From IMG/VR virus record IMGVR_UViG_3300044858_005801, positions 1-31,030 of that record: DNA of 31,030 bases; one strand, written 5' to 3'. The position numbers and the translations under genes were made by a program. Numbering within the stretch: position 1 is the first letter of the stretch; every line of letters starts with the position of its first letter. The notes beneath the pieces were generated by a model. The model had not been told where the DNA came from, made no database searches, and saw nothing but the letters and a program-made list of their open reading frames with translations. The DNA comes from a virus. Shown here one piece after another: positions 2,164 through 30,969 of the stretch.

Positions 2164-3558
2164 TCACCGCTGCACGCGGGGCCGCGGGCGCTTGGCCTGC
2201 GGCAAATTCTCCGCCACGTTGTCATCAGACCGGTCGGAAGCCTGCCGATCTGCCGTGGGGTGGGACAAACTGCCAACAGCAATTCCCACCAATGCGCCAG
2301 CAGGCGTTCGGTCCTGCTGGCTCGCGTCGCTCGCTGCGTTGATTTCGTTCACCCAATGACTGACCGCCCGCTGGGCGGCACACTTTTGGAGGAGCTGCAC
2401 CCACTCGGCCGGATCACGTCCCAACCCATGCGGGGCAATCCCGTAAAAATGGGTGTGGATGTCGTCGAGGTCCTGATCCAGTTCAGCCCGGGCGTGCAGA
2501 TAGTTCAGGATCCTCTGCGCCATCGAGCTGGGATAATTCGCGTGCTGGCCCGTCGCCGCAAACCGGTGCGCCCACCGCAACCACGGGAGACAGACCACCG
2601 GCCGACCATCGGCCCGGTATTTGTCGTGCAGGTAGCCCTCTTCGCCGCCGAATTCGCGGAACCACGGGCTGAAGCCGAGCCAGTCCCGCCGCCGGCAGCC
2701 AAACAGGCCGAGCCCTTGCAGCGGAATGTCAAACGGCGGGGTGTCATCGCCGCGGTACCGCGGGTCTAGGGCCCACTGCCCCAGCATGCCCGCCCCCCAC
2801 GTCCGCGTCTGGTGCGTGCTGACCGATCCGTTGTCGTATTCGAGCGGCCCCTGAAACAGGCCGCAGAAATCGGGATTGGCGTCGAGCCAGCCGAGCGTCC
2901 GCGAGAGGGCACCCGAAGCGACCAGCACGTGCGAATCGACGCAGATCACCACCTCGCCGCGAGCCCGCCGAAACACCTGATCCCGGGGGGCGGCCGTCCC
3001 CTGCTGTTCGCTCCAGGGAATGTACCGCCCGCCCGGAACCATCCGCATCAAATTCTGCACCCGCTGGCTCGCCGTCTCGCCCGGAGCGCTCAGTTCAGGA
3101 GCGGGCCCCTGATCGCCCAGCCGCGGGCGGTTGTCGATCACCAGAATTTCGAGCTGTCCCGCCAGTTCGGGGTGGTGCAGCATCAGCGACCGGACGGTGA
3201 AATACACCCCGTCGAAATCGTCGACCATGGCCATGCCCACCGTGAGCCGCGGGCGGACCTCGCCCCCCGCGGCCAGCGCCGGCCAGTGTCCGTCGGGGCA
3301 ACTCTCCGAAGCCATCGCCAATTTGTTCCGCAGGCTGTTTTCGCTGCTGCTGACCGGACAGCCGCAGCGGCGGCAGCCGGCACCGTCAAACTGCTGCGTG
3401 GGACACGCTTCGCAGATCTGCAGCCGCCGGGCGATCTCTGCGGCAGGGGTCACCCGCAACCCGTCGGCCGCGTGCTTCCACAGGGCCGCCGCGTACTGCT
3501 GCACGCGTCCCAACAGCGAGCGTCCGGGGGTTGGCGAATGGTCAAATGACTGGCTCAT
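2164..3558 (-). CDS. Family 2/27-like glycosyltransferase with N-terminal Cys cluster (464 aa)
   Basis: Probable GT-A fold glycosyltransferase that moves a sugar from a nucleotide-sugar to an acceptor. Residues 49-87 hold a cysteine cluster (C49-x2-C52, C62-x2-C65-x-C67, C87-P) resembling a small zinc-binding module common in phages. The transferase domain starts near residue 104 (LTVGMAMVDD). It carries a DSH metal-binding motif at 208-210, GGEE at 304-307 and a W-x-H at about 329-331, a set seen in polypeptide GalNAc-transferases and relatives. The C-terminal 60 residues are polar and unstructured. ATG 3558 is used; a GTG lies at 3567, and neither has a clear ribosome binding site. It directly follows two poly-Thr tail proteins, its likely substrates. 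Enzyme class is fairly sure, acceptor is inferred. Confidence 0.8.
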   Translation of the reverse strand: MSQSFDHSPTPGRSLLGRVQQYAAALWKHAADGLRVTPAAEIARRLQICEACPTQQFDGAGCRRCGCPVSSSENSLRNKLAMASESCPDGHWPALAAGGEVRPRLTVGMAMVDDFDGVYFTVRSLMLHHPELAGQLEILVIDNRPRLGDQGPAPELSAPGETASQRVQNLMRMVPGGRYIPWSEQQGTAAPRDQVFRRARGEVVICVDSHVLVASGALSRTLGWLDANPDFCGLFQGPLEYDNGSVSTHQTRTWGAGMLGQWALDPRYRGDDTPPFDIPLQGLGLFGCRRRDWLGFSPWFREFGGEEGYLHDKYRADGRPVVCLPWLRWAHRFAATGQHANYPSSMAQRILNYLHARAELDQDLDDIHTHFYGIAPHGLGRDPAEWVQLLQKCAAQRAVSHWVNEINAASDASQQDRTPAGALVGIAVGSLSHPTADRQASDRSDDNVAENLPQAKRPRPRVQR

Positions 3559-3614
3559 GCGAAACACTGTAATAGGGCGTTTAGTAATTGCAAGTCATTT
3601 CGGACATATTTTTG

Positions 3615-14441: not shown

Positions 14442-17120
14442 CTACGCTCCGGTGTTTTTGTAGAGGCCGCGGTAGTCGATGGCCTTCGCGCCGAAACACT
14501 GGTACATGCGCATGGCGATCGCCAAGCGGTCGAACATGTTTTGACGTTCGAACGCCGGGGTTTCAAGGCCTTGCAGATACGCGTACTCGACAGTGTCGAC
14601 TTGGCTGGAGTCGCCCGCGAAGTACCACGCAGTGTCGCTGCCCCCCGCGGCCGTCGAGAGCTCGACGTCAACCACCGGCTGCAAACCGTTTTGCCAAATG
14701 TTCCCCACCCCCGAGTTGGAGCTCGCGGGATTGGCCGTGGCTCCCAACAGTTCTAGCCCGGTACCCCGCAGGGCCGGGGGAATCAGCAGATACCGGGGCT
14801 CGACGGCGACAAACACCCCCGAGTTCAAGCCCGTCTGCTGCTGCATTGCGGTGTACGCCACATTGAACGACGCCACACTCATGGCGGTTCCCGGGCCAGT
14901 GGTCAGGTTTTTGTGGGTCGCGGCATTGAACAGGGCGATGCCGTCGTTGACCAATGCGGCGTTGTCTTTGAGCACCCCGTAAACGATGCGGTTTTGCTTC
15001 CGCCGCATCGCCGCCCCCTGTTTGGCGGGGATGTCCGTCAGGGCCGCCAGCCGGTCGTCGACCAGCGTGTTCCAGGTGATAGTGAAGCGCTCGCCCCAAG
15101 TGACCACGCTGTACGGCTCGCGGCCATCGAGCAGCGTTGTTTCTTCAAACGTGCCGTTCTCGGGGATGACCTGCGGGTCGGAGAGTTCGCCGGCGATCAC
15201 GTTGTGCCGCGGCTTGAAATCAACAAAACTCTCACCCGGTTTGGCCCACGCGGTGAAGGTGGCGGTGGTCTCGGCATAGGACCGCCGCAGCACCACATTG
15301 GCCGCGTCGAACAGCAGGTTGGAAAACTGCGCGCGGCCGTTGTACGCCGCCCCCTCGGCCCGCAGGATTCCGAAGTCCAGCGGGTCGGCGCCCAGCACCA
15401 GTCGCGCGACCTCGGCGTTGGCCAACTGGTTGACCTGCCGGGCATCGAAGCCCGCGACAATCAGGCTCTGCCGGGCCATGTTCGGCAGGCTGCCCAGGAA
15501 ATGGTTGGGCCGCCGCGGAGCCTGCCAGGCCACGAAATCCTGCGCGACGTTGCTCCAGATCTGGGTCGGCACATTGGCCCTCCAGGTGCGCTGCAGCAGG
15601 GCGTCGCGAGCGGCCACGGCAAATTTGTCGGCCTCGGCTTCGGCCACGCCGATTCGCACGCCGGCGGCGGGCTGGCTGGCCTGCGTCTGCTGCTGGATCC
15701 GGCCGAGCACCCCCTGCGGGGTCAACGGTTCGGCGCTGCTGGTCAATTGGCCGATCAGGTCGAGCTGGGCCGCCGCCTCGAGGGCCGAGACCCGGACCAT
15801 GGCGATTGCGTCCTGGACCGACAGCGTTCCGGAGGTGGCCGACACAGGAGCCTGCGAGGGCAGGGCCGGAGGCGGGACGGCTGCGGCCACGGGGGTGGAC
15901 GACGTGCGGTTCAGACTGGTCGACACGCGGGCCAAGGCGGCGACCTGTTCCTGGACTGCGGCGCTCAGGTCACAGCCCGCCATCGTCAGCAGCATCTGCC
16001 GGGCGCTCTCGGCCTGGTCGGCGGTGGCGGCGGCGGTGATCGCACCGCACCGGATGAGGGCGGTCAACAGTTGCGGATCCATCGAGTAGTTCTCCAAAAC
16101 GGGGGGAAGTGTGGGGCGGGCGGGGTCCCCAGCGGTGGTCGGCGTGACCCCAGCCGGGGTGCCGGTTCCGCCCAACAGTTCCGCCAGCACCTGGTCCAGG
16201 GTGGCGACGCGATCGATCATGCCGGCCGCAAGTGCCTCGGCCGCGGACAACACCCGCCCCGAGCCAAACGCCGTCGCCACAGTCGACAGAGAGACACGGC
16301 GGCCTGCTGCCAGGTCCGCCACAAATTGTTCATGCACCGCCGCGATGCGCTCGGTGACCCGGGCCCGGGCCTCGGCACTGAGCGGTTCGACGGAATTGAG
16401 TTCGGCTTTGGCCGCCACGGAGCGGAACACGGTGGTGGTGATCCCCGCCTGCGCGTCGGCCTGCGACGTTTCCTGGTGGATCGCCAACACCCCCACCGAG
16501 CCAACATCGGCCGAGGGACTGGCGACCACTTCCGAGGCCTGCGCCCCGATCCAAAATGCGGCCGAAGCCATCAGGTGATTGGCGACGGCGATCACGCGCG
16601 TACCGTTTGCGACCGCCTCGCGGATCGTCGCGGCCAGCTCGGGGATTCCGGCGACGGCTCCCCCGGGGCTGTTGATGTCGATCACAATCGTCGAGACGTC
16701 GGGATTGCTGGCCGCTTGGCGGAACGCCTGGGCCACCCCCTCGGCCGAAACAAACCCGCCCCCCGAGGCGTTGGCCGAGTCGATGCGGCGGGGGACCAGC
16801 GTCCCCTGAATCGTCAGCACGGCGACCGACTGGCCCGCACTGGGGGGGCTCGACGGGGCCGAGTTCATTCCCGTACGGGGCGTTCGCCCGGGAACGGGGG
16901 CCGCGACCGGGTACAGGGCCAGCAACTGATCGGCGGCGACCGGTTCCTCACGCAGTCCCTCCAGCCGGCTCTCGATTTCGCCGTCGTCCAACGCCAGCCC
17001 CTGCCGCCGGAGCGACAGGATTTCACAAAACGCGGCGAGGCGTTCGGGCAGAATCGCCCACGGGGTGGCGAGGGCTTGGGCAGTGAGTCGCCGGACGGCG
17101 TGTTTGCGGGGCGCGGGCAT
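14442..17120 (-). CDS. Prohead protease - scaffold - major capsid fusion protein (892 aa)
   Basis: One frame carries an S49/ClpP-like protease, a linker/scaffold and the major capsid protein. The protease shows INSPGG at 149-154 and the Ser nucleophile region MASAAFW with S186, followed by SPSADVGSVGV, as in lambda gpC. Residues about 347-480 are Ala/Gln-rich and helical, as a scaffold. The C-terminal 400 residues look like a capsid: SFVDFKPRHNVIAGEL, PENGTFEE, WGERFTITWNTLVDD, NRIVYGVLKDN and FERQNMFDRLAIAMRMYQCFGAKAIDYRGLYKNTGA. Such fusions are an annotated class of phage genes. ATG 17120 abuts the portal stop. An internal start at 16082 would give protease-free capsid. Only proteolysis can show where the mature shell protein begins. 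Confidence 0.85.
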   Translation of the reverse strand: MPAPRKHAVRRLTAQALATPWAILPERLAAFCEILSLRRQGLALDDGEIESRLEGLREEPVAADQLLALYPVAAPVPGRTPRTGMNSAPSSPPSAGQSVAVLTIQGTLVPRRIDSANASGGGFVSAEGVAQAFRQAASNPDVSTIVIDINSPGGAVAGIPELAATIREAVANGTRVIAVANHLMASAAFWIGAQASEVVASPSADVGSVGVLAIHQETSQADAQAGITTTVFRSVAAKAELNSVEPLSAEARARVTERIAAVHEQFVADLAAGRRVSLSTVATAFGSGRVLSAAEALAAGMIDRVATLDQVLAELLGGTGTPAGVTPTTAGDPARPTLPPVLENYSMDPQLLTALIRCGAITAAATADQAESARQMLLTMAGCDLSAAVQEQVAALARVSTSLNRTSSTPVAAAVPPPALPSQAPVSATSGTLSVQDAIAMVRVSALEAAAQLDLIGQLTSSAEPLTPQGVLGRIQQQTQASQPAAGVRIGVAEAEADKFAVAARDALLQRTWRANVPTQIWSNVAQDFVAWQAPRRPNHFLGSLPNMARQSLIVAGFDARQVNQLANAEVARLVLGADPLDFGILRAEGAAYNGRAQFSNLLFDAANVVLRRSYAETTATFTAWAKPGESFVDFKPRHNVIAGELSDPQVIPENGTFEETTLLDGREPYSVVTWGERFTITWNTLVDDRLAALTDIPAKQGAAMRRKQNRIVYGVLKDNAALVNDGIALFNAATHKNLTTGPGTAMSVASFNVAYTAMQQQTGLNSGVFVAVEPRYLLIPPALRGTGLELLGATANPASSNSGVGNIWQNGLQPVVDVELSTAAGGSDTAWYFAGDSSQVDTVEYAYLQGLETPAFERQNMFDRLAIAMRMYQCFGAKAIDYRGLYKNTGA
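16080..16095 (-). promoter_or_regulatory. Internal ribosome binding site and in-frame ATG inside the protease/capsid gene
   Basis: On the minus strand TTTTGGAGA (GGAGA at 16091-16095) precedes an in-frame ATG (16082-16080) by eight bases, in codon 347. The following residues MDPQLLTALIRCGAI look like a natural N-terminus of a scaffold. The product would be 546 residues, scaffold plus capsid without protease. This parallels lambda Nu3, which starts inside gene C. The same TTTTGGAGA signal occurs before the 170-aa gene at 19966. Confidence 0.65.
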
Positions 17121-19388: not shown

Positions 19389-19585
19389 GCGGAATTCCGG
19401 AAGTTTTTTGGGGCTGGAACGGCACTTCCCCGGACGATCCGATCGGGGGTCGAGGTTGACCCGACGACCAACAAACGGCGGAATTCCGCGTTGTGGGGGT
19501 TGCATCCTAACCGCCAGCGGTTATTATTCACCCATCAGACACGCACACCGCGAGTCAGAACCACCAGCCCCGAGGAGTTCGAAAA
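19389..19585 (+). promoter_or_regulatory. Cassette promoter/operator module, copy R1
   Basis: The most diverged of four copies. It starts with CGGAATTCCGG, repeats GCGGAATTCCGC 89 bases on, and then has a promoter: -35 TTGCAT (19500-19505), 16-base spacer containing CCGCCAGCGG, -10 TATTAT (19522-19527). GAGGAG lies eight bases before the ATG of the first gene. Because gpW lies divergently to the left, this is also the boundary between island and late operon. A half-similar CCGCCAGCG occurs at 19366-19374. Confidence 0.7.
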
Positions 19586-19930: not shown

Positions 19931-19965
19931 CTGTTCCCAATGTTCCCCCTGTTTTGGAGATTCCG

Positions 19966-20478
19966 ATGAGCGACATTCGAATTTGCGTCCGCGGCGACGA
20001 CGGCGACTACTGGTGTAACCTCCACGGGAGCGACGGCGACCGACTGATTGCAGCGTGCGCCAGCAGGCCGCGGAGCTTGGCCGAACTGTGCCAGGCTGCC
20101 GAAACCTACGCCCGGGGCGCAACCCATTGGGTACAGTATTTCCACGCCGGGCACAATTTCCACCGCTGGGATGCGGGGATGGTCATCATCGACCTGACCT
20201 CCCGGCTGATTGTGGTCAACAGCGGCTACAGCGATCCGCAACTGGTCGACCAAGTCTACTACCACAACGGGTCGTGCAAGACTTCGACCGCCATTCCCTA
20301 CGATCTGACAGCCGACGACTGGCTGATCACCAAAGACCTGCTTCGCCGTATCGATTGGCAGCCGCTGGCAAACCGGCGGTGGGAGCACCTGCATGGTATC
20401 CGCAACAACCCCGAACAGTCTCGATTGACTTTCGGGGCCTATCTCCAGCCGAACCCCGCCCCGTCAGCGACCCCCTGA
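19966..20478 (+). CDS. Duplicated hypothetical protein, copy A (170 aa)
   Basis: ATG 19966 follows TTTTGGAGA; a TTG 12 bases upstream is less likely, since copy B lacks it. I do not recognise the family. It starts MSDIRICVRGDDGDYWCNLHG and has a helix LAELCQAAETYARGATHW. A beta-rich middle follows, YFHAGHNFHRWDAGMVIIDLTSRLIVVNSGY, with several His and aromatic residues, then DWLITKDLLRRIDWQPLANRRWEHLHGIRNN and a Pro-rich end. It resembles a small alpha-beta protein that may recognise a ligand. The protein is identical to the one at 21051-21563. It is second in its cassette both times, after different first genes. Dosage or recent cassette expansion may explain this. Confidence 0.75.
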   Translation: MSDIRICVRGDDGDYWCNLHGSDGDRLIAACASRPRSLAELCQAAETYARGATHWVQYFHAGHNFHRWDAGMVIIDLTSRLIVVNSGYSDPQLVDQVYYHNGSCKTSTAIPYDLTADDWLITKDLLRRIDWQPLANRRWEHLHGIRNNPEQSRLTFGAYLQPNPAPSATP

Positions 20479-20527: not shown

Positions 20528-20723
20528 GCGGAATTCCGAAAGTTTTTTTTGGCTGGAACGGCACTTCCCCGGACGATCCGATCGCGGGCCGAGGTCGACC
20601 CGACGACCAAAAAACGGCGGAATTCCGCGTTGTGGGGGTTGCATCGTAACCGCTGGCGGCTAATATGTAACCATGTCAGACGCACAACGCGAATGACGAA
20701 CACCTAGCCCGGAGTGATGACAG
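20528..20723 (+). promoter_or_regulatory. Cassette promoter/operator module, copy R2
   Basis: CGGAATTCCG at 20529-20538 and again at 20618-20627. Promoter: -35 TTGCAT (20639-20644), spacer with CCGCTGGCGG, -10 TAATAT (20661-20666). GTCGAC and CGATCCGATCG sites lie between the palindromes. The gene ATG follows 57 bases after the -10, with GGAG nine bases upstream. This is the only copy with G instead of A at the centre of the spacer palindrome relative to R3 and R4. Confidence 0.75.
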
Positions 20724-21050: not shown

Positions 21051-21563
21051 ATGAGCGACATTCGAATTTGCGTCCGCGGCGACGACGGCGACTACTGGTG
21101 CAACCTCCACGGGAGCGACGGCGACCGACTGATTGCAGCGTGCGCCAGCAGGCCGCGGAGCTTGGCCGAACTGTGCCAGGCTGCCGAAACCTACGCCCGG
21201 GGCGCAACCCATTGGGTACAGTATTTCCACGCCGGGCACAATTTCCACCGCTGGGATGCGGGGATGGTCATCATCGACCTGACCTCCCGGCTGATTGTGG
21301 TCAACAGCGGCTACAGCGATCCGCAACTGGTCGACCAAGTCTACTACCACAACGGGTCGTGCAAGACTTCGACCGCCATTCCCTACGATCTGACAGCCGA
21401 CGACTGGCTGATCACCAAAGACCTGCTTCGCCGTATCGATTGGCAGCCGCTGGCAAACCGGCGGTGGGAGCACCTGCATGGTATCCGCAACAACCCCGAA
21501 CAGTCTCGATTGACTTTCGGGGCCTATCTCCAGCCGAACCCCGCCCCGTCAGCGACCCCCTGA
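21051..21563 (+). CDS. Duplicated hypothetical protein, copy B (170 aa)
   Basis: Identical in protein sequence to the gene at 19966-20478; one silent T to C change was seen in codon 17. AGGAGA lies before the ATG. It is second in cassette 2, behind the ArdC-like gene, and is followed by the same 14-bp hairpin and by promoter R3, which drives the amidoligase. Near-zero divergence means the duplication is recent or kept uniform by gene conversion. It is unrelated by sequence to its neighbours. No function is proposed. Confidence 0.75.
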   Translation: MSDIRICVRGDDGDYWCNLHGSDGDRLIAACASRPRSLAELCQAAETYARGATHWVQYFHAGHNFHRWDAGMVIIDLTSRLIVVNSGYSDPQLVDQVYYHNGSCKTSTAIPYDLTADDWLITKDLLRRIDWQPLANRRWEHLHGIRNNPEQSRLTFGAYLQPNPAPSATP

Positions 21564-21612: not shown

Positions 21613-21808
21613 GCGGAATTCCGAAAGTTTTTTTTGGCTGGAACGGCACTTCCCCGGACGATCCGATCGCGGGCCGAGGTCGACCCGACGACCAAAAAAC
21701 GGCGGAATTCCGCGTTGTGGGGGTTGCATCGTAACCGCTAGCGGCTAATATGTAACCATGTCAGACGCACAACGCGAATGACGAACACCAGCCCCGCGAG
21801 ACACGATC
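21613..21808 (+). promoter_or_regulatory. Cassette promoter/operator module, copy R3
   Basis: Both CGGAATTCCG palindromes are present. -35 TTGCAT (21724-21729), spacer with the perfect palindrome CCGCTAGCGG, -10 TAATAT (21746-21751). The last 19 bases before the amidoligase ATG differ from R2 and R4, and the ribosome binding site there is weak. Confidence 0.75.
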
Positions 21809-22654
21809 ATGCTGACCGCCAACGACACGACGTTCGGAATCGAAATCGAGTGCCTGATCCCCGACACCGTCCGGATCGCTCTCGGTTACTACCACAACGG
21901 CCGCCAGATCGACGGCCTGCCCACCGGTTGGAACGCCCAGACCGACGGGTCGATCGTTCGCCGCTCCGGGTTCTACGCCGTCGAGATCGTCAGCCCGGTG
22001 CTGCGGGGTGCCGAGGGGCTGGCCCAGGTCGCCCAGGTGTGCCAGTGGCTCAACTCGATCGGGGCCGAAGTCAACGCCTCCTGCGGTCTGCACGTGCACG
22101 TCGGCTGGTCGGGTGACAAAGCTGCCACGATCCGCCTGACGACGATGGTCGCCAACCACGAAAAAGCGATCTTCGCCAGCACCGGGACCCACAGCCGCGA
22201 GCGCGGCACCTACTGCCGCGGTGTGCGGAACGACCGCACGATGCGGTCCGAATTCCTCGACAACGATACCGCCCGCCAGAGCAGCCGCTATCACGTGCTC
22301 AATCTGACAAACCTTGCCCGCCGCCAGCCGACTGTCGAGTTCCGGGCCTTCGCTGGCACCACCAACGCCCGCAAGATTGCCGGGTATGTCCGCCTGTGTG
22401 TGGGACTGGTCAACAAAGCTGCCAACGCCAAACGGACCATCAAGTGGGACAGTTCGACCGTCGTCGCCAGCAGCCCGGTCCGCAAGGGTGGCGAGGGGCA
22501 GACCGAGCTGAACCGGTTGTTTTTCGCGCTCGGTTGGAACAAGGGTCGGACCGCGACGGTCTGGGGTGCGATCGACACCCCCGAGGGGTGCCCGACCCTC
22601 GCCGACAGCAAGGCCAAGCTGATGGAACTGGCCAAGAAATACGACGGCGAGTAG
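21809..22654 (+). CDS. Amidoligase, glutamine-synthetase-like COOH-NH2 ligase (281 aa)
   Basis: Matches the Amidoligase_2 family of ATP-dependent carboxylate-amine ligases. FGIEIEC at 9-15 supplies the metal-binding acidic pair. Then come DGSI (46-49), EIVSP (59-63), SCGLHVHVG (91-99) and TVEFRAF (175-181) with its catalytic-type Arg, and a helix IAGYVRLCVGLVN. These occur in family order, and length is typical. Members are thought to join amino acids or peptides through isopeptide-like bonds, some tagging proteins or altering cell-wall peptides. First gene of cassette 3, with a class II amidotransferase behind it as possible ammonia or amine supplier. Family call is strong; substrate unknown. 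Confidence 0.88.
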   Translation: MLTANDTTFGIEIECLIPDTVRIALGYYHNGRQIDGLPTGWNAQTDGSIVRRSGFYAVEIVSPVLRGAEGLAQVAQVCQWLNSIGAEVNASCGLHVHVGWSGDKAATIRLTTMVANHEKAIFASTGTHSRERGTYCRGVRNDRTMRSEFLDNDTARQSSRYHVLNLTNLARRQPTVEFRAFAGTTNARKIAGYVRLCVGLVNKAANAKRTIKWDSSTVVASSPVRKGGEGQTELNRLFFALGWNKGRTATVWGAIDTPEGCPTLADSKAKLMELAKKYDGE

Positions 22655-22668
22655 TCGCCGCGAACCGG

Positions 22669-22693
22669 GGGGGGGCGGGTGGTCCGCCCCCCC
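22669..22693 (+). terminator. 10-bp GC hairpin between amidoligase and amidotransferase
   Basis: GGGGGGGCGG and CCGCCCCCCC surround a GTGGT loop. No U-tract follows. More likely an mRNA-stabilising or partial attenuation element, since the amidotransferase has no separate promoter. Confidence 0.5.
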
Positions 22694-22732
22694 TCCTGCG
22701 ACCATTGTTCCGCTTCCTGTCAGGAGTGCATC

Positions 22733-23380
22733 ATGTGCGGAGTGTTCGGATTCACCAGCAACAACGGCAATCCGGTCGACCTGGGTCGGCTGCGGGAGAT
22801 TGCCACTGTCACGAACAGCCGGGGTAACCACGCGTGGGGCATGGCGTGGATCAACAGCCGGGGTCGGTTGTGTCAGTTTCGGCAGTCGGGGCCGATTGTT
22901 GACGCCCTGCCGCTGCTGTCGATGGCCCGCGACGCCGTGGCGCTGATCGGTCACTGCCGCTACGCCACTCAAGGGAGCCCAGACGACGCCGTCAACAACC
23001 ACCCGCACCCGGCGGACGGGGGGTGGATCGTCCACAACGGCATGCTCCACGGCTACCGCCAACTCGTGCGGGATCACGGGTTGCTGCCCGTCTCACAGTG
23101 TGATTCAGAGGTCCTCGGTCTGCTGATTGAACGACTCGACGGAGACGACCTGATCGACCGGGTGGCCGAGGCCACCGCCGCGGCGCTGCGTCCCCAGCGG
23201 TCGGCATTAGTGTTGCTTGGGCTGTGGAAGCCGGGCCAGGTGATCGCGGTCCGGCGGGGGAACCCGCTTGTGACCAGCCAGACCCGGCGTGGCGTTTGGC
23301 TCGCGTCGCTGCCCGGGGGACTGCCCGCCACGGTGCGCGAGGTCCCCGACCAGCACGTGCTGGCGTTCCAGGCCCGCTAG
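22733..23380 (+). CDS. Class II glutamine amidotransferase (215 aa)
   Basis: ATG 22733 has CAGGAG upstream, and cleavage of Met leaves the catalytic Cys2 at the N-terminus (MCGVFGFT), as Ntn-type GATases need. Further family motifs: RGNHAWG (30-36), GHCRYAT (73-79), NNHPH (88-92), VHNGML (100-105) and CDSEVL (123-128). It is a free-standing glutaminase domain without a synthetase half. It would hydrolyse glutamine to supply ammonia, or act as an amide hydrolase in reverse of the amidoligase next to it. Published comparative work on amidoligases (Iyer and co-workers) describes such pairings in phages and bacteria. It shares its stop with the convergent zinc-ribbon gene. Confidence 0.88.
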   Translation: MCGVFGFTSNNGNPVDLGRLREIATVTNSRGNHAWGMAWINSRGRLCQFRQSGPIVDALPLLSMARDAVALIGHCRYATQGSPDDAVNNHPHPADGGWIVHNGMLHGYRQLVRDHGLLPVSQCDSEVLGLLIERLDGDDLIDRVAEATAAALRPQRSALVLLGLWKPGQVIAVRRGNPLVTSQTRRGVWLASLPGGLPATVREVPDQHVLAFQAR

Positions 23381-23619
23381 TTCCGGAGCGGATCGTCACA
23401 GGAACCACCGTCGCCCGGCAGGTGGACGACCCGCCCCTGCGAGTCGACCGCCCAGGTCAACGCCACCTCCACCGGGACGCTAACCCCCGGGTGGTGCTCG
23501 ACGTCAAAACAGTCGTCGCACTGGTAGACGGGCAGCTCGACTGCGGCCACCGTCACGACCCCCGCCAGACCGGCGGGACGCCCGCACCGTAAGCAGTCAC
23601 AGACGGGTTGGGGTTTCAT
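23377..23619 (-). CDS. Small zinc-ribbon protein on the opposite strand (80 aa)
   Basis: ATG 23619 starts MKPQPVCDCLRCGRPAG. C7-x-C9-x2-C12 pairs with a second knuckle YQCDDCFDVEHHPG, giving a C-x2-C...C-x2-C zinc ribbon with VTVAAVELPVYQ strands between. The rest is a small beta domain. It is the only minus-strand gene inside the island and runs tail to tail with the amidotransferase, their stop codons overlapping. No promoter or ribosome binding site is obvious. The clean Cys pattern makes it likely real. Role unknown; zinc ribbons of this size are usually DNA- or protein-binding adaptors. Confidence 0.6.
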   Translation of the reverse strand: MKPQPVCDCLRCGRPAGLAGVVTVAAVELPVYQCDDCFDVEHHPGVSVPVEVALTWAVDSQGRVVHLPGDGGSCDDPLRN

Positions 23620-23742
23620 GCGAACCACGCGACAGGAGACGGCAGAGAGGCTACCAGCCGTCGGGAACCGCGTTCCCTGCCGGGTGGCAGCACGATGTCT
23701 GGCACTCTACCACCGGCAGACCACGACTGGACACCCACCCCA

Positions 23743-23937
23743 GCGGAATTCCGAAAGTTTTTTGGGGCTGGAACGGCACTTCCCCGGACGATCCGATCGC
23801 GGGCCGAGGTCGACCCGACGACCAAAAACCGGCGGAATTCCGCGTTGTGGGGGTTGCATCGTAACCGCTAGCGGCTAATATGTAACCATGTCAGACGCAC
23901 AACGCGAACGACGAACACCAGCCCGGAGTGATGAGAG
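23743..23937 (+). promoter_or_regulatory. Cassette promoter/operator module, copy R4
   Basis: Both palindromes are present. -35 TTGCAT (23854-23859), spacer with CCGCTAGCGG, -10 TAATAT (23876-23881), GGAG nine bases before ATG 23938. Similarity to R1 extends a little upstream (CACCCCAGCGG against CATCCCAGCGG). The 120 bases between the zinc-ribbon start and this module hold nothing I can identify. Confidence 0.75.
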
Positions 23938-24660: not shown

Positions 24661-24891
24661 GTGACCCGCAAACGCTATCACCCACCGCTGAAACTGTACT
24701 CCACGGCTGAGGCCGCTACTGACCTGCAGGTCTCGCCCGAGACCGTCCGCCGACTGGCCCGGCTGCGCCACCTCGGCGTACGCAAGGGGCGCGACTGGCT
24801 GTTCACCCCGCACGACCTCGACCAGATGCGCGCCCGCCCCCGCGTGGGGACCTACGACCGCAGCCGCCCGAACAAAAAGGCCGCGCCATGA
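24661..24891 (+). CDS. Small HTH protein, excisionase/MerR-type (76 aa)
   Basis: GTG 24661 follows CAGGAGA and is chosen over a longer upstream frame that reads through two hairpins. The core LYSTAEAATDLQVSPETVRRLARLRHLGVRKGRDWLFTPHDLDQMRARP is a winged helix-turn-helix of the HTH_17/excisionase type: A-A-x-x-L-x-V-S-x-x-T-V-R-R-L then R-x-x-W-x-F-x-x-x-D-L. The C-terminus is basic. Such proteins act as excisionases or transcription factors. It is the only DNA-binding regulator seen in the island, hence a candidate to act on the four promoter modules. It overlaps the ASCH gene by ATGA. Confidence 0.75.
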   Translation: MTRKRYHPPLKLYSTAEAATDLQVSPETVRRLARLRHLGVRKGRDWLFTPHDLDQMRARPRVGTYDRSRPNKKAAP

Positions 24892-25325
24892 TCCTGCGAG
24901 CACTGACGATTAAACAGCCTTGGGCCTCGCTGCTCGTGGCGGGCGTCAAGACGGTGGAAAACCGCAGTTGGACCACCGCGTATCGAGGGCCGCTGGCGAT
25001 CCACGCCGGGGCGGCCCGCGAGCGCAACGCGGCCCAGATGATCGCCGATTGCTTGGGCCGCGATTTGACCCCCAGCGAGCGGGCGCGGTGGTTGCTCGAC
25101 GCCGAGTTGCCGCACGGCCAGGTACTGGGGGTGGTCGAGCTGCTCGACGTCGTGCCGGTCGAGCAGACCCACGAGGTGGAGAGCCCGTGGGCGATCGGCC
25201 CGTGGTGCTGGCGGGTGCGACCCTCCCAGCAGTTTCAGCCCCACGCCCGCCCCGCCTTAGCCGGAAAACTTGGGCTCTGGAAATGGGAATCGGGCGACCT
25301 GCGGATTGGCAAGTGGCGGGAGTGA
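24888..25325 (+). CDS. ASCH-domain protein (145 aa)
   Basis: The start overlaps the HTH stop (ATGA). The N-terminus LRALTIKQPWASLLVAGVKTVENRSW, then YRGPLAIHAG near residues 32-41, is the hallmark of ASCH proteins, a beta-barrel fold related to PUA. Later GQVLGVVELLDVV, then a W-x-x-G-P-W-C-W strand and a C-terminal GKLGLWKWE, also fit. ASCH proteins bind RNA or nucleosides, and some hydrolyse N4-acetylcytidine; the phage versions are common and mostly uncharacterised. It closes cassette 4 and the island, and is followed by a hairpin shared with the convergent nuclease gene. Confidence 0.85.
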   Translation: MILRALTIKQPWASLLVAGVKTVENRSWTTAYRGPLAIHAGAARERNAAQMIADCLGRDLTPSERARWLLDAELPHGQVLGVVELLDVVPVEQTHEVESPWAIGPWCWRVRPSQQFQPHARPALAGKLGLWKWESGDLRIGKWRE

Positions 25326-28894: not shown

Positions 28895-29048
28895 TCATCT
28901 CCACCAGAGCAACGGCGGCTTTGACCCGGGCGGCGGGAGGGGTCTGCCCGTCGGCAATGATCTGCGCCAGCACCCGCGGCACAACCGAGAGCATCTGCGG
29001 AGTGATCAGCCAGCGAGTCTGTTCTGCGGCGGGAGTCGGATCGCTCAT
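28632..29048 (-). CDS. Small helical protein overlapping the small terminase (138 aa)
   Basis: ATG 29048 overlaps the stop of the ABC/GNAT gene (ATGA). The first 58 residues (WLITPQMLSVVPRVLAQIIAD, then ARVKAAVALVEMNEQNARL) form two good helices and lie outside the overlap. Residues 81-106 (AVRIELSAEGLEALRGN...) look folded while the terminase frame opposite is low complexity. The last 30 residues are disordered where the terminase frame becomes structured. This alternation suggests both overlapping frames are used. Function unknown; position before TerS suggests a packaging or copy-control accessory. Confidence 0.6.
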   Translation of the reverse strand: MSDPTPAAEQTRWLITPQMLSVVPRVLAQIIADGQTPPAARVKAAVALVEMNEQNARLSRLTAESVPGSASPGDAAGAPPAVRIELSAEGLEALRGNFLGRLAAAGESGGSAGTAAPGRVVETDQPRRRRAARGANPG

Positions 29049-30343
29049 TCATCGACCACCCGATAGGTGTACCTGTCGCGTCCCTTTCCGGAACCCAGTC
29101 GCCGCAGCCGGCCCGCGGCGATCTGGTTTTGGGCCCAGCGGTCAAACAGTGACCCGCAGACCTGCCCTAGGTCCAGCAGTTTTTCGCGGGTCCGGTTGGG
29201 GTGTTGGCGGACCAGGTCGGACAAATCCACCCGCCGGATCGTCTCGGCCTGCTCTCGCGGCAGGGCCGGGCCCACGTATTCAAAGCTGGCGGTTTGGCGC
29301 CCGAACGACGTGCGGTGATTTGAGGTTCTGCCTTTGCTGAACACGTGCGTTGTGGGGGTTGCGGTCAGTTTCTGGCTGATCCGCCAGAGCGGGGAGCGGT
29401 AGCGGTGCGCGATCATTGCGGGGTGTCCCGTCCGACTGTAGTACCGTTCTCCACAGCCGCGATAGATCGACCCGACCGCAGCCGACATGGCTTGGCCCAA
29501 CCCGACCCCCTGAAAATCCGGCAGGCAGACCAGCCGGCTCTCGCGCCACTGGCCCACGCCATTGGGCGAGCTGATCACGGCGGCAAACGTCGCCGGCCGC
29601 CCGTCGACCGTCCCCAAAAAACACTCAGCCCCCGCTTTCAACTCGGCGTTCAGATAGTGATGGTGTGCGAACTGCCGCCAAGCCGAATCGCGGACCCGCT
29701 GAATCTCGAGGGTGATGCGTGGTCGTTGTTGAAGCGACCTCCATCGGAACTCGCCGGTGTGGGGCTCGTAGGTCCAGTCCGGCTGCAGCCACCCCACGAT
29801 ATCGTCGTGACACGCCACCCCCACAAATTTGGTCCCCGGCCGCGCCCGAATCGCCTTGGCCACGGCCGCCGATCCGATCCGGGCCACGGTCCGATCGACC
29901 ACCGAGGTGAACTCATCGATCACCGCCAGCGACGACTCGGCCAACGCCCGCGCCAGCGTCACCCGAAACTGCTCGCCGTTTGACAGGCAGGCGAATGGCC
30001 GCAGCCACGCCGGCGGCGACGAAAACCCAACCGACGACAACAGGCCCGTAACCTCTTTGATTGACAGAGTTTCGGGAAAACCATCGACCACCGCAGCCCC
30101 CGGTTTCCACTCAAAACCACTCACCAGGTTCTCCCCGAAAAACTCCCGGGCAATCGTCGACTTGCCGCAGCCCGACGGGCCATGGATCAGACCGATCTGC
30201 CACGGTTGTTCGTCGATCGGCAGCGTCACCTCCCAGGTCAGTTCCGACCGTTTCGAGGGGGGCAAATCGAACATCCCCTCGAGTTGTTTCACCCGGGCCG
30301 ACCGGGCGACTGGGGAACTCCTTACGATACGATGGCTCGGCAT
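29045..30343 (-). CDS. ABC-type ATPase fused to GNAT and winged-helix domains (432 aa)
   Basis: ATG 30343 has GGGGGA upstream. Residues 30-225 are an ABC ATPase: Walker A GPSGCGKST (55-63), signature LSNGEQ (120-125), Walker B LAVIDE (139-144), D-loop SVVD and a switch His near VACHDD. There are no membrane segments, so it is not a transporter. Residues 230-335 form a GNAT-like fold with LVCLPDFQGVGLGQAM, a real acetyl-CoA-binding Q-G-x-G-x-A-type loop. The last 65 residues (LSDLVRQHPNRTREKLLDL...RLRRLGSGKGRDRYTYRV) look like a winged helix. It lies between the ParB-like gene and terminase, an arrangement known from other phages but of unknown role. Confidence 0.8.
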   Translation of the reverse strand: MPSHRIVRSSPVARSARVKQLEGMFDLPPSKRSELTWEVTLPIDEQPWQIGLIHGPSGCGKSTIAREFFGENLVSGFEWKPGAAVVDGFPETLSIKEVTGLLSSVGFSSPPAWLRPFACLSNGEQFRVTLARALAESSLAVIDEFTSVVDRTVARIGSAAVAKAIRARPGTKFVGVACHDDIVGWLQPDWTYEPHTGEFRWRSLQQRPRITLEIQRVRDSAWRQFAHHHYLNAELKAGAECFLGTVDGRPATFAAVISSPNGVGQWRESRLVCLPDFQGVGLGQAMSAAVGSIYRGCGERYYSRTGHPAMIAHRYRSPLWRISQKLTATPTTHVFSKGRTSNHRTSFGRQTASFEYVGPALPREQAETIRRVDLSDLVRQHPNRTREKLLDLGQVCGSLFDRWAQNQIAAGRLRRLGSGKGRDRYTYRVVDE

Positions 30344-30969
30344 TCAATCCCCCTGTTTTCCAGCTCCTCCAAGAGCATTTTTTGGTGTCCCTCATCCGTG
30401 CAGGTGATCATCACCTGAAACCGCTCCGGGACCTGCTCGGGCGGAATCTCTTCGGGCTCGTCGACGTCATCCGCAACAATCAACTCCCGCTCTTCGGCCA
30501 GCCCCGCAAACATCTGCTGCAGCTCGGCGTCCCCCACCTCCACCTCCCGCAGGAGTTTCTCGAGGGCCGCATCATCCCATTCCGCGAGCTCGGCGGTCCG
30601 GTTGTCCGCGATCGACAAAGCGGTGGCGGTGACGTTGTCCATCGCCTTCCGCACGACCGCCAGCCGCGCAAACCGCAGATCCCCCTCGGCCAGCAACTCG
30701 CGAGCCGCCGCGAGCCGCCCGTTTCCGACCCGCACCACCGAGTTGTCGGCCTGCACCACCAGCGGCGTGTACTGACCAAACTGCCGCAGACTTCCTTTGA
30801 TCGAATCGAGGTTGGCCCGCTGATGCGCCCGCGAGTTGGCCGGGTCGGGATACAGATGGTCGATTGGCTCTGCAAGCGCCCGCAGGTTCTCCACAATGTG
30901 CGTCAGGTCGGGAGGCGCATCCGCCTGCCGACCCTTCTTTTCAGCGTTCCCAGAGGCCTTTTTCGCCAT
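30322..30969 (-). CDS. ParB/Srx-fold N-terminal-domain protein (215 aa)
   Basis: ATG 30969 starts a Lys-rich tail; no clear ribosome binding site. The ParB-type domain runs from about residue 36: IDHLYPDPANSRAH, LDSIKGSLRQFGQYTPLVVQ, then VGNGRLAAARELLAEG (81-96). This last is the nucleotide-binding G-x-x-R-x-x-A motif of ParB/sulfiredoxin-like proteins. IADNRTAELAEWDDAALEKLL follows, as in phage ParB-like nucleases. The C-terminus is acidic, then alpha-beta (FQVMITCTDEGHQKMLLEELENRGI). Overlap of 22 bases with the ABC/GNAT gene. Such proteins may act as CTPase/ATPase switches or nucleases during packaging; role not established. Confidence 0.8.
   Translation of the reverse strand: MAKKASGNAEKKGRQADAPPDLTHIVENLRALAEPIDHLYPDPANSRAHQRANLDSIKGSLRQFGQYTPLVVQADNSVVRVGNGRLAAARELLAEGDLRFARLAVVRKAMDNVTATALSIADNRTAELAEWDDAALEKLLREVEVGDAELQQMFAGLAEERELIVADDVDEPEEIPPEQVPERFQVMITCTDEGHQKMLLEELENRGIECRAIVS

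Follow-up and report, generated by a model that had tools for sequence, protein, structure and literature searches.

An accessory cassette of a probable Planctomycetota phage carries adjacent genes for an amidoligase and a class II glutamine amidotransferase (GATase), and the two products are read here, tentatively and with confidence a little under even, as a glutamine-dependent amide synthase that likely acts on a peptide carboxylate of the host envelope. The cassette is encoded in IMG/VR virus record IMGVR_UViG_3300044858_005801, a stretch of 31,030 bases that was analyzed whole and is termed the window. In the proposed mechanism, the cassette, which has its own promoter-like site and runs against the late-gene direction, would be gained, lost or exchanged as a block at near-identical 189-bp repeats. 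The GATase would hydrolyze glutamine and deliver ammonia, while the ATP-dependent YbdK/GS-like ligase would couple the ammonia to an activated carboxylate. The most likely target would be a peptide carboxylate of the host envelope (e.g., of the peptidoglycan stem peptide), and the altered surface of the infected or lysogenic cell may hinder competing phages. The proposal of a single amide synthase is based on fold, invariant catalytic residues and co-evolution of the pair; the envelope-peptide target and phage exclusion are suggested by a homologous podovirus cassette.

Amidoligase/GATase pairs recur in many phages, and the planctomycete pair looks like the smallest natural form: two intact, co-evolving enzymes and a specific small partner gene. 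The module is missing in a close relative, and thus allows phages that are otherwise similar to be compared cleanly with and without the pair; the candidate partner is narrowed from any neighbor to a zinc-ribbon gene.

Genomic setting and the repeat-headed island

The minus-strand genes of the window include (i) a ParB-like gene and an ABC-ATPase-GNAT-like fusion (ABC-GNAT), (ii) the terminase small and large subunits and (iii) portal, a fused head protease/major head protein and tail. A mostly plus-strand island (about 19.4-25.3 kb) resides between the minus-strand terminase and portal genes and includes the amidoligase/GATase pair. The features considered are:

19389-19577, plus strand: repeat copy 1, heading a module of 100-aa and 174-aa genes (repeat search)
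19954-20478, plus strand: 174-aa gene, near-identical to the 170-aa gene
20528-20716, plus strand: repeat copy 2, heading a module of 83-aa and 170-aa genes that is absent from sister contig L002 (repeat search)
21051-21563, plus strand: 170-aa gene, a near-identical duplicate of the 174-aa gene (repeat search)
21613-21801, plus strand: repeat copy 3, heading the amidoligase/GATase module (repeat search, alignment of eight copies)
21809-22654, plus strand: amidoligase (Amidoligase_2, YbdK/GCS/GS-like ATP-dependent carboxylate-amine ligase), 281 aa (PF12224, fold, invariant residues, dN/dS)
22667-22695, plus strand: GC-rich hairpin with a 12-bp stem, between amidoligase and GATase (folding against shuffles)
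22733-23380, plus strand: class II GATase (GlmS/PurF-type Ntn glutaminase domain), 215 aa, N-terminal Met-Cys (PF13522, phrog_14519, GlmS, invariant residues)
23377-23628, minus strand: gene for a small zinc ribbon of 83 aa that converges on the GATase gene; a recurrent partner of the pair (neighbor survey)
23743-23931, plus strand: repeat copy 4, heading a module of 52-aa and 133-aa genes, then HTH and ASCH genes (repeat search)
24661-24891, plus-strand island: HTH gene, after the copy-4 module
24888-25325, plus-strand island: ASCH-domain gene, recurring near the pair
29045-30343, minus strand: ABC-GNAT, often near the pair
30322-30969, minus strand: ParB-like gene, often near the pair

Elsewhere in the record, the head maturation protease and major head protein are apparently fused into one 892-aa protein (14442-17120, minus strand), and a glycosyltransferase family 2 domain is encoded in the left part (2164-3567, minus strand).

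The four copies of the 189-bp repeat share 85-96% identity, and each is positioned just upstream of a plus-strand gene. In copy 3, a promoter-like site is composed of a -35 TTGCAT (21724-21729), a 16-nt spacer containing CCGCTAGCGG and a -10 TAATAT (21746-21751). When eight copies from the window, sister contig L002 and relative L107 are aligned, TTGCAT is invariant, as are the A and AT of the -10; the -10 hexamers are AT-rich (TATTAT, TAATAT or AATAAT), the spacer is 16 nt throughout, and a block near ACGCACAACGCGA is conserved in all copies. Based on this conservation and the match to consensus, the repeat is considered promoter-like; a general sigma-70 promoter scan did not report the site within the repeat. 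A 16-nt stretch of the repeat (GCGTTGTGGGGGTTGC) is found again inside the ABC-GNAT gene (about 29345-29365), which may be chance.

The initial annotation had the two genes share one promoter, and this view stands in part: the promoter-like site precedes both genes, and no plus-strand site between them came out of the scan, but the GC-rich hairpin separates the two. The hairpin is no better than shuffled sequence (z -1.3), and thus is possibly due to composition alone; in 22 loci inspected, the amidoligase is mostly, but not always, followed by a hairpin of unrelated sequence. The conserved promoter-like site and the hairpins are candidates for a promoter and terminator of the module, which may be transcribed independently. 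Co-transcription of amidoligase and GATase is likely.

The block structure of the island is revealed by comparison to L002 and L107. The portal and terminase stretches of L002 are 100% identical to those of the window, whereas its island has three repeats (compared to four in the window), is without the 83-aa/170-aa module and diverges downstream of the last repeat, with island dS values of 0.05-0.28 between the two contigs. L107 is related at ~80% nucleotide identity over the portal, terminase and ABC genes and has a single repeat; PF12224 has no match in the L107 record. Because L002 has fewer modules, and L107 has one repeat and no pair, the pair is regarded by this comparison as an accessory 'moron'-type cassette, present here and missing from the close relative L107 at the same place. 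The simplest reading is that recombination at the repeats would add, remove, duplicate or swap the repeat-headed modules, which the near-identical 170-aa and 174-aa genes fit. The late-gene neighborhood ascribed earlier to the pair is positional only: the pair is on the opposite strand, in a separately headed accessory module that the ~80%-identical relative does not have. Transcription of the late genes would cross the pair in antisense.

The host assignment derives from relatives. Of 15 amidoligase loci in genome contigs, the closest six are all Planctomycetota, and the relatives of the pair are located in Planctomycetota phages and one Planctomycetota prophage. In a Planctomycetota MAG contig, a related cassette (L087) has the phage genes for portal and capsid to one side and the host genes for MnmG and Mg-chelatase to the other; this supports a Planctomycetota host and prophage carriage for the group. 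A tyrosine integrase match is detected in 8 of 33 pair-bearing records; no integrase match is found in the window record, which may be a fragment. The window phage is probably a temperate virus of Planctomycetota.

The two enzymes and their linkage

The amidoligase is assigned by PF12224 (E 2.7e-26; 93.4 bits, curated cut-off 22) and phrog_2443 (E 1.2e-31). As a PDB profile search with the amidoligase alignment returned chance matches to designed repeat proteins and nothing else, fold comparison was used instead. The AlphaFold2 model (mean pLDDT 94.5) has the fold common to YbdK, glutamate-cysteine ligase, glutamine synthetase and the Pup enzymes PafA and Dop (versus YbdK homolog: VIA Z 13.7, rmsd 4.3, 234 aligned), and this GS/GCS-like fold includes the conserved ExE, HxH and ExR motifs. 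Residues E12, E14, E59, H95, N165, E177 and R179 are invariant, with 87-90 homologs aligned per position, and presumably correspond to the metal and phosphate sites of GS.

The GATase is matched by PF13522 (E 9.7e-9) and phrog_14519 (E 4e-22). Its predicted true start is the ATG at 22733, as an AGGAG (22722-22726) precedes this codon and the Met-Cys N-terminus of relatives results; the GTG at 22679 of the ORF list is too early. The nearest solved structures by PDB profile search are GlmS (2.8e-22) and then PurF. Residues C2, R76, T79, G81, H90, N102, G103 and D124 are invariant in 49/49 homologs and align with the GlmS glutaminase site; thus, the class II hallmarks (Met-Cys, with the Cys as predicted N-terminal nucleophile once Met is removed; the glutamine-binding Arg/Asp residues R76 and D124; and the oxyanion Asn-Gly of N102 and G103) are present in every homolog. 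Position 77 is Trp or Tyr in 39 of the 49, as in GlmS and PurF.

Between the window and L002, dN/dS is 0.046 for the amidoligase and 0.116 for the GATase (substitution counts are small), values that point to purifying selection on both. Judged from alignments and model, the two enzymes are intact and look active. This agrees with the earlier view that both proteins are complete and keep their family motifs, the catalytic residues being retained across 49-90 aligned relatives.

Catalytic residues do not separate ammonia transfer from hydrolysis of the EgtC type, because both chemistries share them. The main rival, which is unlikely, is that the amidoligase, in the manner of EgtA or gamma-glutamylcysteine ligase, would link an amine in a gamma-glutamyl amide or isopeptide and the GATase-like Ntn amidohydrolase would remove the glutamyl group, with no transfer of ammonia. 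Such an arrangement has precedent in ergothioneine biosynthesis, where EgtA is a homolog of gamma-glutamylcysteine ligase and EgtC is a class II GATase homolog that acts as an amidohydrolase (PMC9103826); like the window, EgtA/EgtC pairs a glutamate-cysteine-ligase-like enzyme with a class II GATase-like protein (PMC9103826). EgtC also ranks second among NCBIfam enzymes for the window GATase; however, it is outscored by GlmS (68.6 bits for GlmS, 42.6 for EgtC and 40.0 for PurF), so the GATase is not closest to EgtC. GlmS is likewise closer than EgtC for all five GATase members scored, and EgtC is not among the matches of the GATase PDB profile search.

Gamma-glutamylamine cyclotransferase (GGACT) bears on the same question. 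GGACT is encoded in 4/33 pair-bearing records compared to 0/35 control phage records, a weak hint of gamma-glutamyl chemistry, and Arthrobacter phage Waltz has cyclotransferase, amidoligase and GATase genes consecutively. The Waltz genes are of the same two Pfam families and in the same order as in the window, but differ in the gamma-glutamylamine cyclotransferase that precedes the pair, in genome context and in sequence (about 28% identity). Against gamma-glutamyl attachment and release, a search of all 31,030 bases for PF06094 (GGACT) had no match, although the record may be a fragment.

The reading as one amide synthase draws further on the linkage of the two genes. A profile scan with the amidoligase detected 175 viral relatives, of which 80 were kept. 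The GATase is present at 44 of 66 close amidoligase loci with room downstream, always downstream and on the same strand (44/44); the pair is, thus, conserved elsewhere, and, with the catalytic residues retained on alignment, neither of the outcomes that the initial annotation named as refuting has occurred. Distances of amidoligase and GATase correlate over 49 loci (rho 0.81, Mantel p 0.001). At matched loci, the amidoligase-GATase correlation exceeds that of amidoligase with terminase (0.73 versus 0.22) and ParB (0.83 versus 0.42), as well as with ABC-GNAT, the zinc ribbon and a zincin-like protein, while ASCH (14 loci) correlates with the amidoligase as well as the GATase does. By these distances, the amidoligase and GATase genes co-evolve and are stably linked. 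Fusion of the two was considered as proof of a complex and rejected, as four long amidoligase ORFs of Clostridia contigs are without a GATase domain.

Comparison to amidoligase/GATase genes of other phages

Podoviruses (phage tf, LUZ24, PaP3, phiEco32, RIO-1 and PSA-HP1) encode a 'peptidoglycan modification cassette' that is proposed, as a hypothesis of the source, to change the side chains of peptidoglycan and to prevent superinfection (PMC5498523). Like this cassette, the window has adjacent Amidoligase_2 and class II GATase genes, and these are homologous to those of phage tf (profile comparison E 6.6e-11 for the GATase and 2.8e-8 for the amidoligase). Unlike the podovirus cassette, the window has two enzymes only and is without GGACT, COOH-NH2 ligase and the ATP-grasp enzyme. 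Queries with PF14395 (COOH-NH2 ligase type 2) and the tf ATP-grasp protein, both of which detected phage tf, had no match in the record. The GATase is 215 aa in the window versus 531 aa in the podoviruses, the zinc-ribbon partner is extra, and the window pair belongs to an island that is headed separately and is close to packaging genes, whereas the podovirus cassette is among replication genes. By its two-enzyme content, zinc ribbon and repeat-headed island, the window locus is a variant of an already described kind that falls outside the full podovirus cassette, and the peptidoglycan role may not transfer because the GGACT, COOH-NH2 ligase and ATP-grasp partners are absent.

A planctomycete phage with an amidoligase and a GATase is also on record. 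Phage-ZRK32, from a planctomycete of the deep sea, has genes for amidoligase, GATase, gamma-glutamylcyclotransferase and glutathione synthase, and reportedly promotes growth when nitrate or ammonium is supplied (PMC10945688). The likeness to the window is by that description, which differs in adding the gamma-glutamylcyclotransferase and glutathione synthase and in presenting the phage as extrachromosomal and chronic (PMC10945688). Thus, the combination of amidoligase and GATase in phages, planctomycete phage included, is already described, and the phage-borne, amide-forming role put forward in the initial annotation has published precedent in the podovirus cassette (PMC5498523) and Phage-ZRK32 (PMC10945688). 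No substrate is demonstrated for phage amidoligase/GATase pairs in the cited literature.

The gene set of Phage-ZRK32 and its reported growth benefit also suggest an auxiliary role in nitrogen metabolism, as proposed for that phage, in which the pair would assist ammonia assimilation by the host or its synthesis of amino acids derived from glutamate. For the window this role is very unlikely: by its chemistry, a glutamine-consuming GATase would spend rather than assimilate ammonia, the cyclotransferase of Phage-ZRK32 is absent, and the portion of PMC10945688 relied on describes no single-gene test.

Neighboring genes and the readings they suggest

The 170-aa and 52-aa genes, offered earlier as examples of a conserved small substrate, are not conserved by the neighbor survey: the 170-aa gene is seen in sister contig L002 only, and the 52-aa gene has no relative in the related loci searched. 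Recurring instead are the zinc-ribbon gene and, in other phages, the zincin-like gene. The zinc-ribbon gene is within 3 kb downstream of the GATase in 24/42 pair loci, nearly always in the opposite orientation. Among ABC-GNAT loci, the zinc-ribbon gene is present at three of four with the pair and at none of 76 without. The zincin-like family (about 145 aa) is found at 19/66 close amidoligase loci and has no convincing Pfam or PHROG match. Of 22 members inspected, six retain the HExxH motif and the others have lost it; the model for the family (pLDDT 90) has zinc peptidases as best, weak structural neighbors (SprT-type Z 6.3, rmsd 3.5, 106 aligned). Examples beside pairs include L090:7157-7594, L013:9690-10250, L016:6120-6695 and relatives. 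A PADLOC scan for defense genes had no match for the amidoligase, GATase or zinc-ribbon protein.

These neighbors raise the prospect of peptide or protein tagging, in which a small protein, either the zinc ribbon or one of the host, would receive an amino acid or amide from the ligase and the zincin-like partner of other phages would trim or present it. The specificity of the zinc-ribbon gene for pair loci in the ABC-GNAT sample, the recurrence of the zincin-like family with its HExxH and peptidase-like neighbors, and an amidoligase fold that includes PafA and Dop are in line with tagging. Its probability is, nevertheless, low, as the zincin-like protein is not in the window and its structural matches are weak (Z 6.3 at best), while the C-terminus of the zinc ribbon is not strongly conserved and its gene is convergent rather than co-transcribed. 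Similarly doubtful is that amidoligase, GATase and zinc ribbon (with the zincin-like protein in relatives) constitute a distinct Planctomycetota-phage conjugation system that would act on one particular protein or peptide, perhaps the zinc ribbon itself, and not on the cell wall.

The ABC-GNAT and ParB-like genes, in turn, suggest a DNA acyl-modification system that would include the pair. ABC-GNAT proteins are predicted to modify DNA bases (PMC7824862), and ABC-GNAT is found at 19/66 close amidoligase loci. Conversely, of 80 ABC-GNAT loci, 73 have ParB and six have the amidoligase; 35 ABC-GNAT records chosen without amidoligase have no PF12224 match over their whole length, and the amidoligase and ABC-GNAT distances correlate poorly (0.17). 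Participation of the pair in DNA modification is, thus, highly improbable, and the link through ABC-GNAT/ParB was set aside as the main reading, with 74/80 ABC-GNAT loci lacking the amidoligase. As separate observations, ABC-GNAT and ParB occur together in 73/80 viral loci examined, and the ASCH gene is also near many ABC-GNAT loci without the pair.
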